Shown here: in pieces, positions 1,208-15,058 of the stretch | How the letters are laid out: each line of letters begins with the position of its first letter | Position numbering within the stretch: position 1 is the stretch's first letter | Virus record (IMG/VR): IMGVR_UViG_3300008012_000261 | Span: 1 to 20,465 of that record | Reading direction: 5' to 3' (one strand) | From: a virus | Length of the DNA stretch: 20,465 nt | Notes under the pieces: generated by a model | What the model was told of the DNA's origin: nothing | Seen by the model: the letters and a program-made list of their open reading frames with translations, nothing else | The model's database searches: none | Program-made: the position numbers and the translations under genes

Positions 1208-1233
1208 TCAAGGCATAGTTATTTATTCCTTGA
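1208..1233 (-). promoter_or_regulatory. T4-type late promoter motif inside a 6-bp hairpin
   Basis: On the minus strand, TCAAGG (1233-1228) and CCTTGA (1213-1208) form a perfect inverted repeat around a 14-nt loop, AATAAATAACTATG. AATAAATA matches the T4 late promoter TATAAATA at seven of eight bases. With T4 spacing, transcription would begin near 1214, just before the 3' arm. The stop codon of the peptidase gene is the TAA inside this motif. The promoter function is inferred from the motif and its position 5' of the 1198 gene. Confidence 0.6.
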
Positions 1234-1888
1234 TGAATCCTTCTTTCTTCAACCACTCACGAGTAAGTGGTGTCAGTTCATAATCCGTCCACATTGTACC
1301 GCGAGCACAAGACTCAAGTGCTTCCATAGTCATATTTTCTGTGCGCCCAGCCCAACCTGCTTCTGCTTCCCAGGGCACAGCAGACTTGGGATAAGTGCGT
1401 TCTGCCATGGTGCGCCACAGCATAGGAACATCTTCCTCATTATGAATGATAGCAATCATACTATTTTTAATAGTACCTGCCATGCAATCTTGTGCAGCGT
1501 GCCACCCCTCATGTCTCATGACACTCATGAGAACACCAGGATCATCCATATATTTTTTATTAAGAAAGAAGTTATTACCTACAGTATGATACACACCACG
1601 GTGACCATGAGGAAAATACTTCTGATCGGCTAGAAACACCTTAACTCCGACCTGCTCAAGGGCAACGAGCATTCGGTTGAATTCAAGAGTAACTGAAGTA
1701 AACTCATCAGTATTATCATACTGACTAGAAACATCCAGAAGACTAAAGACTTGTTCGACTCCATCGGTACACTCGCGCAACAACATGCACCCCAAGGAAT
1801 CCATAGTATTATAACCCTTTGTAGGTTTCGCTTCTACAGGCATTACAATCGCTACTGCAGCAAGTGCAGCAAATAATTTTTTGATCAT
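1223..1888 (-). CDS. Exported zincin-like metallopeptidase candidate
   Basis: The 221-aa product begins with a textbook signal peptide: MIKK, a hydrophobic core at residues 5-17, and a likely signal peptidase I site after VEA at residue 20. Residues 126-130 are HEGWH, a match to the HExxH zinc-binding and catalytic motif, within a predicted helix. Glu174 or Glu176 in WEAEAGW could be the third zinc ligand, as in gluzincins. Cysteines at 34, 40, 135 and 194 could form disulfides outside the cytoplasm. Without the late promoter it would be silent until late infection; the motif at 1900-1923 lies directly upstream. Possible roles are envelope or surface-protein processing at lysis or entry. It could also be an inactive relative; there is no substrate evidence. 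Confidence 0.75.
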   Translation of the reverse strand: MIKKLFAALAAVAIVMPVEAKPTKGYNTMDSLGCMLLRECTDGVEQVFSLLDVSSQYDNTDEFTSVTLEFNRMLVALEQVGVKVFLADQKYFPHGHRGVYHTVGNNFFLNKKYMDDPGVLMSVMRHEGWHAAQDCMAGTIKNSMIAIIHNEEDVPMLWRTMAERTYPKSAVPWEAEAGWAGRTENMTMEALESCARGTMWTDYELTPLTREWLKKEGFIKE

Positions 1889-1899
1889 AAATTCATCTC

Positions 1900-1923
1900 A
1901 ATGAATAATTATTTATCTTCATT
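1900..1923 (-). promoter_or_regulatory. T4-type late promoter motif inside a 6-bp hairpin
   Basis: Minus strand AATGAA (1923-1918) and TTCATT (1905-1900) are a perfect inverted repeat around the 12-nt loop GATAAATAATTA. GATAAATA differs from TATAAATA at one base. The T4-like start site would fall near 1904, inside the 3' arm. It lies 12 nt upstream of the peptidase ATG. The motif contains the stop of the 47-aa gene (GAT AAA TAA). Confidence 0.6.
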
Positions 1924-2052
1924 ATACCAGAAGTCTTCCCAGTCTTCTTCGTTAGCTTCGTAGATAGGACATGGTTCTTCAAATAACACATCCATCTTCA
2001 TGCGATGTGCCTTCTCTGCAAGTTTTTTTAAGTCTTCAGTATCTAAACTCAT
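1909..2052 (-). CDS. 47-aa acidic small protein
   Basis: This short frame runs from ATG at 2052 to the TAA at 1909-1911. The N-terminal half is helical in character (LKKLAEKAHRMKMDVLF), and the C-terminal half is strongly acidic and Trp-rich (EEDWEDFWYNEDK). It overlaps the 53-aa gene upstream by 17 nt and its last codons double as a late-promoter motif. There is no recognisable family. An acidic, aromatic tail of this kind could bind a protein partner or mimic nucleic acid, but that is speculation. The packing and clean overlap support it as a real gene. Confidence 0.6.
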   Translation of the reverse strand: MSLDTEDLKKLAEKAHRMKMDVLFEEPCPIYEANEEDWEDFWYNEDK

Positions 2053-2197
2053 TTAAAATATCCAGTACCTTATTGAGTGTATAATGAGCCCCTTCGTGCC
2101 ACTTATCACTCTTCTCATCATGACTATTATAGAGTTCGTGCTTTAACTGGTAAACCTTATGCTCTACGTCAATCTTTGTCAGTTGTGATCTAGGCAT
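2036..2197 (-). CDS. 53-aa conserved-looking small protein
   Basis: ATG at 2197 opens a 53-codon frame ending in TGA at 2036-2038. The protein is charged and predicted helical, with VEHKVYQLKHELYN and WHEGAHYTLNKVLDILNEF. I recall similar sequences as short hypothetical proteins in T4-like cyanophages. The late-promoter hairpin at 2210-2232 lies 12 nt upstream of the start, and no Shine-Dalgarno is visible. It overlaps the 47-aa gene by 17 nt. No function can be assigned; the His residues in WHEGAH do not match HExxH. Confidence 0.65.
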   Translation of the reverse strand: MPRSQLTKIDVEHKVYQLKHELYNSHDEKSDKWHEGAHYTLNKVLDILNEFRY

Positions 2198-2209
2198 ATA
2201 CAAAAACAG

Positions 2210-2232
2210 GCATCGAACTATTTATCCGATGC
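2210..2232 (-). promoter_or_regulatory. T4-type late promoter motif inside a 6-bp hairpin
   Basis: Minus strand GCATCG (2232-2227) and CGATGC (2215-2210) are a perfect inverted repeat around the 11-nt loop GATAAATAGTT. GATAAATA differs from TATAAATA at one base. The T4-like start would be near 2213, within the 3' arm. The upstream nuclease gene ends in the motif as GAT AAA TAG. Confidence 0.6.
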
Positions 2233-2577
2233 TTCCTGATTGTCTTTGTTTCCAAACAAAGCAATGAAATATTCTGCGTCTACAACTACAAGTGGTTTCT
2301 TTCTATTCTTTTTCATGACAACGATGGGTTCATAGTCACCACAATTAGCACAAGCTTGTTCGTATGCATCCCATACATTGAGACGCTCTACGTTTTTACA
2401 CTCAATACTATGAGGAAACTTCTGTCTGGCAGCACGAGCCATGATGAGATCTTCACCACCTGCGCCCATAGATCGAGACTCAATGTCCTCTGGATGGACA
2501 TCAAGAATCTCGATCAACATTTCACGAACCCACTTCTGTAAGTTCCTGCCTTTTGCTTTAGCACTACTAGCCTTCAT
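2218..2577 (-). CDS. PD-(D/E)XK-type endonuclease, possible Holliday junction resolvase-like
   Basis: The 119-aa protein has a basic N-terminal helix (KAKGRNLQKWVREML), then GAGGEDL and, after a short loop, IECKN. The D...ExK spacing (Asp in GGEDL, Glu and Lys in ECK) fits the PD-(D/E)XK nuclease core, as in VSR-like, Hjc-like and other small phage nucleases. A following helix (NVWDAYEQACANCG) and the strand PIVVMKKN are consistent with that fold. ATG at 2577 is preferred over an in-frame GTG at 2583. It overlaps the 53-aa gene upstream by 11 nt. A role in recombination or DNA processing is plausible beside UvsX-dependent replication; substrate specificity cannot be read from the sequence. 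Confidence 0.7.
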   Translation of the reverse strand: MKASSAKAKGRNLQKWVREMLIEILDVHPEDIESRSMGAGGEDLIMARAARQKFPHSIECKNVERLNVWDAYEQACANCGDYEPIVVMKKNRKKPLVVVDAEYFIALFGNKDNQEASDK

Positions 2578-2728
2578 AACCACGGATCTGGTATTTGAAC
2601 TTCATCGCTTGGAGAAACCAAGCATCCGTCAGACACTTGGGTCCGTGAAGTAGAACCTGTACCTGTTTCTCTGGTAGAGTTGGATCCTGTAGTGCTCTCT
2701 TTTTCCACTCTGGAAGTTCGTTTGTCAT
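2567..2728 (-). CDS. 53-aa small protein
   Basis: ATG at 2728 is preceded by a good Shine-Dalgarno-like AGGTGG five nt upstream, and the frame ends in TAG at 2567-2569. The protein starts MTNELPEWKKRALQDP, with a Pro-rich turn (LPEKQ) and GPKCLTDAWFLQAM near the end, so it is soluble and probably helical. It overlaps the nuclease start by 11 nt, indicating coupled translation. The family is not recognised. It may be a small partner of the nuclease, but only adjacency suggests this. Confidence 0.65.
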   Translation of the reverse strand: MTNELPEWKKRALQDPTLPEKQVQVLLHGPKCLTDAWFLQAMKFKYQIRGYEG

Positions 2729-10085: not shown

Positions 10086-10093
10086 TATTTATA
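10086..10093 (-). promoter_or_regulatory. T4 late promoter TATAAATA
   Basis: TATAAATA is an exact match to the T4 late promoter, 33 nt upstream of ATG 10053 of the Ig-domain protein. It starts at the last T of a terminator's T-run, so upstream transcription stops and late transcription restarts at the same point. The untranslated leader then carries CTGGAAAAACC before the ATG. Confidence 0.75.
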
Positions 10094-10120
10094 AAAAATG
10101 GGAGAGGCGTACCTCTCCCA
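10093..10120 (-). terminator. Intrinsic terminator
   Basis: Minus strand TGGGAGAGG (10120-10112), four-base loop TACG, CCTCTCCCA (10107-10099), followed by TTTTTT (10098-10093). A 9-bp GC-rich stem with a T-run is a standard rho-independent terminator. It sits 6 nt after the stop of the 72-aa gene and ends the transcript coming from the accessory block. Confidence 0.88.
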
Positions 10121-12451: not shown

Positions 12452-13635
12452 TTCTTCTCGATAGTAAAATTATTGTACGCGAACTCAAGACGGTTAACAA
12501 ACTTGATCATACTACCGTCTTTATGCATAACATATCCTTCAGGACTGGTTACCTTATAACCTTTATCTGTTTGAACAAATGTCTTGAAAGTTTCAAGGTG
12601 ATCTAATTTATCTATAACCATTTGTTTGATAGCCTGCAACTCTTTATAGAGTGCAATCATCGTCTTGAAACTGTATACGTTATCTAATAGGTAATTTTCA
12701 CTCTGATATACCAAGTTTCTTTTCTTTGTAAGAGTAGCAACTGTCTTTATCTTGGACAGTTCCTTTGTCATCTTGGCGTGGTAGAAGTTTACCAGTTCAT
12801 TTATGGTCTCATCGACATTTGTGATGGCTCTCGCATTTTTAATTTCCGAATTAAAGAACTGCTTGAGGGAGGAAGATATGTGGAGTTTTTTCTCTCCTGT
12901 ATTGCCAAAATTATCCACCAACTGATCCAAAAAAGGACCAGCAAGAACACACATGCGTTCAATTTTCTGAACATGGTTATCAAAGGTACGGAGTTCTGCT
13001 GTAGAAAATCCCACTCTATCCATAGGTGTGTCGTTTTTTACAACCAATACGTTACTATTACCTTCTACTTTTGCACCTGCCATGGCCTGCATATTTTCTA
13101 ATGCAGTACCAGTGTAGTGAGTGTGAAATACTACCCCAATTTTAGCAGTGTTTGCAGCTTTGCCAATGGGATGATCAACTGGTATACCATATGTAATGGT
13201 ATTAGGGCGGAATGTATACAACTCCTCACCGTCTACAGTTTCTTTCTTTAAATCTGTGGTGAATAGCAAGTCTCCCTGCACCACACCTTTGATACCTAAT
13301 TGACTAAAATATTTTAGAGCAAACTTTAGTTTCTCTGCTAGATCTCCTTGATACCATTCATCAATACTCTCCTCGGTGAAGCAGATCTTTGGTTCTGTTT
13401 TGTTAAAAACTGACTTTGTTCCTACAAAGAACATCTCTGTCAGCGGTTCTACACCACAAACAACTGAAGGCGCACCATCCCACTTGGTCTGCATGAATCC
13501 GCTGCTCTCTTGCTTGCCCAGCATCTTGCGAAGTTCTTTCAAGAATGAAACTGCTGCCATACACCCCTCGGTGCCGTAGTTCAGCATCTCATCTTCCAAG
13601 TGTTCTAGGTGTTTGAGTTGTTTAATGTTTGCCAT
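12442..13635 (-). CDS. Ligase-like covalent nucleotidyltransferase
   Basis: The 397-aa protein has KWDGAPSVV at residues 51-59. This KxDG fits motif I of ATP-dependent DNA/RNA ligases and capping enzymes, where the Lys is adenylated. FFVGTKSVFNK at 69-79 is a candidate further nucleotide-binding segment, GVVQGDLLF (117-125) has the character of motif IV, and GVVFHTHYTG (167-176) may be a later motif. The C-terminal 200 residues are helical. RNA or DNA end joining, or modification of another molecule, is possible. I recall this family in T4-like marine phages as uncharacterised. Start TAATG overlaps the 433-aa gene by 1 nt. Confidence 0.75.
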   Translation of the reverse strand: MANIKQLKHLEHLEDEMLNYGTEGCMAAVSFLKELRKMLGKQESSGFMQTKWDGAPSVVCGVEPLTEMFFVGTKSVFNKTEPKICFTEESIDEWYQGDLAEKLKFALKYFSQLGIKGVVQGDLLFTTDLKKETVDGEELYTFRPNTITYGIPVDHPIGKAANTAKIGVVFHTHYTGTALENMQAMAGAKVEGNSNVLVVKNDTPMDRVGFSTAELRTFDNHVQKIERMCVLAGPFLDQLVDNFGNTGEKKLHISSSLKQFFNSEIKNARAITNVDETINELVNFYHAKMTKELSKIKTVATLTKKRNLVYQSENYLLDNVYSFKTMIALYKELQAIKQMVIDKLDHLETFKTFVQTDKGYKVTSPEGYVMHKDGSMIKFVNRLEFAYNNFTIEKKWR

Positions 13636-14936
13636 TACGCCAGCAGATAGTTTACCGTTCCTTGACTAGCATCAATGTTGCTGGTAGATGCCTTTGAACC
13701 AGAAAAACTCAAGTTCATCTGTGCAGCTTTACTCATCCTGAAATACACTTCTCCCTTCAAGAACTTACTATCATCCAAGTTTGCTTGATAGAAATCCTTT
13801 CCAGCGATCAATCTCTTTGCTTCGTTTAGAGATGTGGTATCTTTATTTAATCTGTCTGCTATACCCCTTGATAGAATAGCGGTCAGTGATTTACCGCCCT
13901 TTTTGCCGTTGGTGATCAGCACTTGAGCCGATGACTCTGTACCATCACCACCAGATTTGACATACTGCAGTGCCTTGAGCAGGACAGGAGCATGTTCAGC
14001 AGGTTTTCCTGCCTTAAATGCCTTGAAAACATCGTATGGTGCGTTGGTATCCACGCCTAGAATCTGCTTGATTCCATACTGATATACTATCTCCTTTCCC
14101 TTGCGCGTGGGGTCACCGCCGACCGCTTCCGCAGCTGACACAAGGTCTTTCAAAACACAGTCTGGCAGACTACTCTTGTACTTTATAGCAACTGGAATGA
14201 TGTTAGCCCAGACAGATGCCAGAGCACCTCTACCATACTTGGATGAGATGGGAACCTGGGTTCCATCTTCTGCTAAAAACAGCGAGTCAACACCAGCAAA
14301 CTGTGGATCATCAGGTACTAAAAAGCACTTATTATTTTTAGGAAGAATGTTTTGAGATAGGTGTCCCTGTGCTGCGTTGGACATACCAATATATCCCACC
14401 AACATCTCACCAACATAGGTTCCTAGTTGTTTTTTGATACCATCTACTACTGCTTTGGACCATGTGAAATTGTAGTTGCCATCCAGATTACTCATGAAGT
14501 AATCCACAACTTGTTCGGTTACATAGTCAGGCACCGATGGTTCATTTTCCAGTCCATGTATAACTGATGTAGCAATCTGTTCTGGTGTAGTAAAACATTT
14601 ACACTTTACATCAGGTATGCCCAGGATAGAGGGCACAATTTCATTGCTACCTTTTGATATAAGTTTCGTTGCTTCGATCTGCATCCTGACATTTGTCTTA
14701 CCAGGCTTGTCGATGCAGTCGATATGGAGTTCACTACTGTTATTACCCCAACTTATTTGCAGTTTGGTATTGTACTGGTCGCCGCCGAACACAGTGATAG
14801 GTGTTCCGTGCGCTAGTTTCACGCCAGAGGCAGTGGTATTTTTTGTTTCAGTTGCCTTACTGTTGGCCTTAACAAAAGTATCAACGGTCCTACCTTTGAA
14901 GTAGTGCTCCCATTTTACTCTACCAGTCTTTGCCAT
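13635..14936 (-). CDS. 433-aa protein, weak PD-(D/E)XK-like pattern
   Basis: No well-known family is recognised. The N-terminal 110 residues are rich in beta-type segments (GTPITVFGGDQYN, ELHIDCIDKPG). In the middle, GEMLVGYIG (about 176-184), GVDSLFLAEDG (215-225) and PISSKYGRG (229-237) resemble the Glu helix, Asp strand and xxK strand of a PD-(D/E)XK nuclease, with Ser replacing the usual Glu/Asp before the Lys. This is a hypothesis. The C-terminal part has a Gly/Lys-rich loop (NGKKGGKS) and basic helices. It begins the accessory operon and its stop overlaps the ligase-like gene by 1 nt. The start lies 8 nt after a GGGGAGG Shine-Dalgarno embedded in a hairpin. Confidence 0.8.
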   Translation of the reverse strand: MAKTGRVKWEHYFKGRTVDTFVKANSKATETKNTTASGVKLAHGTPITVFGGDQYNTKLQISWGNNSSELHIDCIDKPGKTNVRMQIEATKLISKGSNEIVPSILGIPDVKCKCFTTPEQIATSVIHGLENEPSVPDYVTEQVVDYFMSNLDGNYNFTWSKAVVDGIKKQLGTYVGEMLVGYIGMSNAAQGHLSQNILPKNNKCFLVPDDPQFAGVDSLFLAEDGTQVPISSKYGRGALASVWANIIPVAIKYKSSLPDCVLKDLVSAAEAVGGDPTRKGKEIVYQYGIKQILGVDTNAPYDVFKAFKAGKPAEHAPVLLKALQYVKSGGDGTESSAQVLITNGKKGGKSLTAILSRGIADRLNKDTTSLNEAKRLIAGKDFYQANLDDSKFLKGEVYFRMSKAAQMNLSFSGSKASTSNIDASQGTVNYLLA

Positions 14937-14967
14937 AAAAAAATCCTCCCCTATTATTTAGAGGAGG
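14937..14967 (-). terminator. Dual-use hairpin: terminator, late promoter loop and sequestered RBS
   Basis: Minus strand CCTCCTC (14967-14961), loop TAAATAATA, GGGGAGG (14951-14945), then A and seven Ts (14943-14937), directly before ATG 14936. The 7-bp stem (one G-U) plus T-run is an intrinsic terminator for the tRNA side. CTAAATA (14961-14955) fits a cyanophage late promoter, with the start near 14949. GGGGAGG is the Shine-Dalgarno of the 433-aa gene. Read-through RNA would hide the RBS; late RNA would lack the 5' arm. Confidence 0.72.
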
Positions 14968-14973
14968 TATAAA

Positions 14974-15058
14974 CGGAAGGGGTGGGATTCGAACCCACGG
15001 AAGCTCTCACTTCGCTAGTTTTCAAGACTAGAGCCTTAAACCACTCGACCACCCTTCC
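14974..15058 (-). tRNA. tRNA-Ser(UGA)
   Basis: An 85-nt cloverleaf reads on the minus strand. Acceptor GGAAGGG pairs with CCCTTCC; the D arm is GTCGAGTGGTTTAAGGC. The anticodon stem CTAGT/ACTAG closes the loop CTTGAAA, giving anticodon TGA (15024-15022). A long variable arm (class II, as in tRNA-Ser) precedes the T arm GTGGG-TTCGAAT-CCCAC. The discriminator is G, as in serine tRNAs. CCA is not encoded, so the host CCA-adding enzyme would be needed. It reads UCA and other UCN codons. Its 5' 31 nt overlap the end of a 69-aa ORF. Confidence 0.95.

Follow-up and report, generated by a model that had tools for sequence, protein, structure and literature searches.

Candidate late promoters nested inside intrinsic terminators of T4-like cyanophages

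In bacteriophage T4, genes e, soc, 49, I-TevI, I-TevII and segB have hairpins that mask the ribosome-binding site (RBS) in read-through RNA, and the late start of these genes removes the 5′ strand of the hairpin, according to passages in two T4 reviews (PMC3014915, PMC2988022). T4 late promoters carry TATAAATA at −13 to −6, as given in a passage of PMC1524935, and the gp55-type late promoters of cyanomyoviruses, NATAAATA in S-PM2, have the same motif upstream of late genes, as stated in part of PMC2984593. The cyanophage elements described here share with the T4 genes, as those review passages portray them, a late promoter in the region of the hairpin 5′ strand or loop, and with the intrinsic terminators of T4-like phages a stem with a U tract behind it, placed at an operon boundary. 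What sets the cyanophage hairpins apart from those of the T4 masked-RBS genes is a T run at their end, which makes them resemble intrinsic terminators; those at gene 13 and at site C (see below) also hide no Shine-Dalgarno. Unlike ordinary intrinsic terminators of T4-like phages, they hold a sense late promoter. The best reading takes them as the T4 e/49/I-Tev arrangement in a terminator-based form; no prior description of late promoters inside cyanophage terminators was found in the open-access literature searched.

The window, that is, the whole stretch of DNA analysed, is a virus record of 20,465 bases, a fragment of a marine T4-like Synechococcus phage near S-CAM3. Over its first 12 kb it matches T4-like Synechococcus phages, S-CAM3 best (86% over 84% of the query). 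A preliminary description of the window had reported three perfect 6-bp inverted repeats around late motifs, here called sites A, B and C. All three are exact, with arms and loops as claimed; they lie on the minus strand, and nrdB and RusA-like genes stand on their upstream side in the direction of transcription. These sites and the other features of the window used below are as follows.

1208..1233, minus strand: site A, inverted repeat TCAAGG/CCTTGA with a 14-nt loop around AATAAATA; weak, without a T run
1900..1923, minus strand: site B, inverted repeat AATGAA/TTCATT with a 12-nt loop around GATAAATA; very weak, 5′ arm coding
2195..2583, minus strand: span of the genes flanking site C; the phrog_566 gene, with its probable ATG at 2195-2197, starts downstream of the hairpin
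2208..2234, minus strand: site C hairpin AAGCATCGGATAAATAGTTCGATGCCT holding a late promoter, then the tail GTTTTTGT; from the fold, a terminator scan and homologues
2219..2226, minus strand: site C late promoter motif GATAAATA, with a start predicted at about 2213, in the 3′ arm
2218-2583, minus strand: RusA-like resolvase gene, its 3′ end within the site C hairpin
10086..10120, minus strand: tandem arrangement, terminator at 10099-10120 with its T run leading into TATAAATA at 10086-10093
13635..14936, minus strand: gene for a 433-aa protein, family not recognised, directly downstream of the element at 14945-14967
14945..14967, minus strand: nested element CCTCCTCTAAATAATAGGGGAGG, then ATTTTTTTATG; the 3′ arm closes with the Shine-Dalgarno GGAGG
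14955..14961, minus strand: late motif CTAAATA of that second element, predicted start at about 14949
14974..15058, minus strand: tRNA-Ser (TGA), its 3′ end 6 nt ahead of the element at 14945-14967

The late starts had been placed in or next to the 3′ arm, and the predicted starts at 1214, 1904 and 2213 agree with this when the spacing in that passage of PMC1524935 is applied. Three of the 11 motifs scanned in the window have a perfect stem, with a binomial P of about 0.0005–0.001 that is uncorrected and concerns a spot picked by eye. The enrichment test that the preliminary description had proposed came out negative for perfect stems: those of at least 6 bp with a loop of at most 14 nt were seen at 13 of the 661 promoter-like motifs of 19 cyanophage genomes, against a swap expectation of 1.46%, and in nine cyanophage genomes plus T4 perfect stems of at least 6 bp stay at the flank-swap expectation. 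This background level is what chance would give, AT-rich promoters in crowded intergenic gaps occasionally overlapping inverted repeats, and the same reading is favoured by the abundance of terminators adjoining late promoters: one ends at most 40 nt upstream of the late motif at 52 of 764 sites, which makes this commoner than nesting. The window has such a case at 10086..10120, an ordinary terminator-then-promoter arrangement with the promoter outside the hairpin.

The three sites differ in strength. Site C folds at −13.8 kcal/mol (z −3.6) and is the sole outlier, next to −7.7 kcal/mol (z −1.5) at site A and −2.9 kcal/mol (z +0.3) at site B, and it alone of the three has a T run. At site A, the 3′ arm falls within a leader, GCCTT(G/A)CTC, that is found after late motifs in relatives that have no 5′ arm, and its GCCTTG is common to leaders whose upstream side has no CAAGG. 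At site B, a reading frame ends in the 5′ arm; the motif has been lost in S-CAM3 and is retained without the repeat in S-CAM1. Since the folds are weak and the promoter persists in distant relatives that have no such hairpin, both sites A and B are probably chance, and they probably stand outside the terminator-nested set. Because the pairing of site A is kept in four of the five close homologues inspected, and because the folds of site B in close homologues range from −1.8 to −7.1, with one of them (L217) folding better than the window, chance is likely here, not proven. The earlier picture of hairpins placed repeatedly in several consecutive genes thus gives way, as the weak hairpins A and B are missing in distant relatives.

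The leader at site A is shared in its own right. GCCTT(G/A)CTC stands 4–5 nt after a late motif and ends shortly ahead of an ATG, in the window at 1198-1226 and also at S-H9-2 96649, Sf-CH11 158178, S-RSM4 14448 and S-WAM1 138087. A looser form, GCCT(T/C), follows 12 of 1438 scanned motifs, some of them of another kind. Other late leaders, at S-CAM1 160224 and S-RIM32 113627, open with a small stem shortly ahead of the ATG, and these stems differ by phage (CTAGT/ACTAG, GTTAG/CTAAC).

Site C, by its sequence, looks like an intrinsic terminator around a late promoter. The inverted repeat at 2210-2232 (minus strand; GCATCG/CGATGC, loop of 11 nt) forms a stem directly followed by GTTTTTG, and an independent terminator scan lists the site as well. 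The homologous hairpins came in five distinct sequences, each with a T run and with differing letters; their 5′ arms vary as widely as GCATCGGAT and AGGCTGTAGATA, and RNAfold gives −12.8 to −18.9 for four of them. The hairpin is at its place in only four full-length loci (93–99% identity) of 80 RusA-like loci, and the remaining loci, like most of the distant homologues, have the motif with no hairpin around it or no motif.

A second element of this kind, at 14945-14967 between tRNA-Ser and the 433-aa gene, had been overlooked in the preliminary description. In the family of the 433-aa gene, 15 of 16 homologous loci reduce to eight distinct 48-nt sequences, all with such a hairpin. S-CAM3, S-CAM1 and S-RSM4 also carry the element, and in these three phages mazG is annotated a little upstream of the element. 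For the 433-aa protein (13635-14936), neither PHROG nor Pfam gave a match at E 0.001. It is conserved behind a nested promoter in viral loci.

At this element, the GGAGG that ends the 3′ arm lies 8 nt ahead of the ATG and is kept in homologues, so the hairpin covers the Shine-Dalgarno. This is what would be expected of a translational block of the T4 gene e type, in which the hairpin matters by hiding the RBS in read-through RNA and termination is incidental. The logic is described in passages of the T4 reviews (PMC2988022, PMC3014915), and the same scans recover the T4 sites ahead of e, 49 and I-TevII. At gene 13, however, the AGGTG ahead of the ATG, the predicted ribosome-binding region, falls outside the hairpin, and in the fold of S-PM2 gene 13 all sequence past the T run is unpaired. 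No Shine-Dalgarno was seen in the 3′ arm of site C, and a T run follows the hairpin in all three families, those of gene 13, the 433-aa gene and site C. Because of these T runs, and because two of the families hide no Shine-Dalgarno, termination explains the hairpins better than RBS masking, and we regard a purely translational block as unlikely. Masking of the RBS, as in T4 gene e, is predicted for the 14945-14967 type alone. The appeal to T4-like logic in the preliminary description is supported in general, with the T4 precedents recovered in the scans and with the qualification that most of the real cases look like intrinsic terminators. The contrast it had drawn between read-through RNA, which would keep the hairpin, and late RNA, which would lose its 5′ half, applies to site C and to 14945-14967.

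The clearest case lies outside the window, in the nested element upstream of gene 13 (neck protein). A genome scan recovered elements of the type AAGTCCCTgCCTG-ATAAATA-CAGGtAGGGACTTTTTG upstream of gene 13 in S-PM2 (record LN828717, about 57240-57291), S-H9-2, S-RIM32 and Sf-CH11, and inspection of 18 isolate genomes showed the element in five, these four and S-RSM4. The rest of the 18 mostly have no motif upstream of gene 13, and the same is true of most gene 13 homologues in other genera. A degenerate pattern of the element has 63 exact matches in viral contigs, and each of them immediately precedes a gene 13 homologue. From 99 gene 13 loci found, 80 were kept and 79 used, giving 46 distinct upstream sequences, 33 of which form a stem of 10 pairs or longer (G-U allowed) around a loop that is exactly the 7-nt ATAAATA or CTAAATA. 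A scan of the geometry of the 46 assigned 34 to the nested class, 6 to a class with only the predicted start in the hairpin, 3 to the tandem arrangement and 3 to sequences without a terminator; one locus assigned to the start-in-hairpin class, L149, is actually nested around its second motif.

Covariation in 22 distinct gene 13 sequences is strong: 97.6% of cells are paired versus 89.7 in shuffles, 26 cells are changed on both sides versus 10.1 ± 2.6, and the covariation score is 0.283 versus 0.139, each reached in 0 of 500 shuffles. Slid versions gave at most 59% paired and a score of 0.121. In one control, two of the five measures lay within the shuffles, namely pairs changed on both sides (375/500) and pair types (178/500). 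The covariation test refutes chance for gene 13. The hairpin rather than its letters is conserved at the boundaries of gene 13, the 433-aa gene and RusA-like/phrog_566 (site C). With this covariation, the retention of hairpins with different letters and the excess of nested sites over swaps given below all against it for site C and the gene 13 and 433-aa families, chance is quite improbable as a general explanation; it remains the preferred reading for sites A and B.

A reading at the level of DNA was also weighed, in which the palindrome, as a cruciform or as a dyad to which a protein binds, would help the late polymerase to open a −10 element that the loop exposes. At gene 13 the 7-nt −10 element fills the loop exactly and the arms are near-perfect, and the early promoters of phage N4 are DNA hairpins, all of which would suit such a role. 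The T run, and the G-U pair that columns 9 and 25 form in 16 of 22 sequences, point instead to pairing in RNA, and most late promoters have no palindrome; we therefore hold this reading to be highly improbable.

Nesting was then placed in its genomic context by scanning for [AC]TAAATA in 19 cyanophage genomes, with genes taken from simple longest-ORF calls, which makes the promoter-like and in-gene classes approximate. Duplex energy alone (−9 or lower) gave 24 motifs versus 14.5 expected in the first nine genomes (3/200 swaps) and 21 versus 9.8 in ten hold-out genomes (0/200 swaps). This criterion was dropped because hold-out in-gene motifs showed an excess as well (25 versus 16.8, 4/200 swaps), and it was replaced by a strong stem plus a T run. 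Site C, 14945-14967 and gene 13 each have a stable hairpin with a T run immediately behind it, which sites A and B lack; a TATAAATA-like −10 motif (NATAAATA, CTAAATA) lies shortly upstream of the gene, as in T4-type late promoters.

With the stem and T run, 8 of 661 promoter-like sites in the 19 genomes are terminator-nested versus 0.72 expected (0/300 swaps), a comparison in which the swap test counts relatives more than once, since the nested sites belong to only three gene families in 7 of the 19 genomes and homologous sites are not independent. The in-gene motifs yielded 1 of 567 versus 0.43, the one being the S-CAM3 orthologue of site C miscalled as in-gene. The ten hold-out genomes yielded 2 of 352 versus 0.31 (reached in 10/300 swaps), both from S-RSM4, an excess that is weak taken alone; the stem-plus-T-run criterion had been chosen after the first nine genomes and took its final form after all 19. 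Unlike these elements, the usual gp55-type late promoters of cyanomyoviruses thus lie mostly outside hairpins.

Counted from the side of the terminators, 1268 terminator-like hairpins in the 19 genomes (450 of them intergenic) hold a sense motif in 9 cases and an antisense motif in 3, with a mean of about 0.5 for anagram motif controls; in the window, 2 of 11 such hairpins hold a motif. The predicted start falls within a terminator at 20 of 661 sites versus 4–8 at distant shifts. In 319 fetched loci (1.23 Mb) there are 34 distinct nested hairpins, all but one (L363) in the three families, so nesting is rare but conserved where present.

Terminators also stand in other relations to late motifs. 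At 18 sites in the 19 genomes, a complete terminator-like hairpin lies between the late motif and the next called gene, for example at Syn9 119410 and S-PM2 133171; these sites may reflect mis-called motifs, small unannotated genes or attenuators. The 18 late motifs run counter to the nested reading in its simple form. At ACG-2014b 164505 (upstream of the major head protein), Syn33 166792, S-CAM9 128672 and S-PM2 105626, the late motif abuts a terminator hairpin whose 5′ arm would fall between the −10 motif and the start, leaving the late RNA without most of it.

We consider it likely that a small group of late promoters in T4-like cyanophages sits within intrinsic terminators, where the starts, the termination and the use of gp55 are what we infer. 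Polymerase arriving from upstream, that is, from the structural-gene operon at gene 13, tRNA-Ser at 14945-14967 and the RusA-like gene at site C, would make the full hairpin and terminate at the U tract. Polymerase with a gp55-type late sigma would start about 6 nt beyond the motif, within the 3′ arm; the start positions, which are predicted only, fit a late start beyond the 5′ arm, as described for T4 gene e. Because such a start would leave the 5′ arm out, the late RNA would escape termination at that hairpin and continue into the next gene. At 14945-14967, as at T4 gene e, read-through RNA would additionally have its Shine-Dalgarno hidden by the hairpin. Whether the palindrome as a whole acts as terminator and late promoter at once, kept by covariation at operon boundaries that stay fixed, with a late RNA immune to it and perhaps with extrusion of the −10 loop under negative supercoiling, is a more speculative form of the idea to which we give little credence. 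Most distant relatives of site C have either a motif with no hairpin or no motif at all, and most gene 13 homologues in other genera have no motif upstream, so the device is dispensable.

A few tens of bases would, in the nested arrangement, close one transcription unit and open the next. If this is true, the elements would be a compact switch between transcription units in dense phage genomes, and would carry the hairpin logic of T4 beyond translation to termination. Such nested elements would be missed or misjudged by annotation in which a promoter and a terminator are always two separate intervals.
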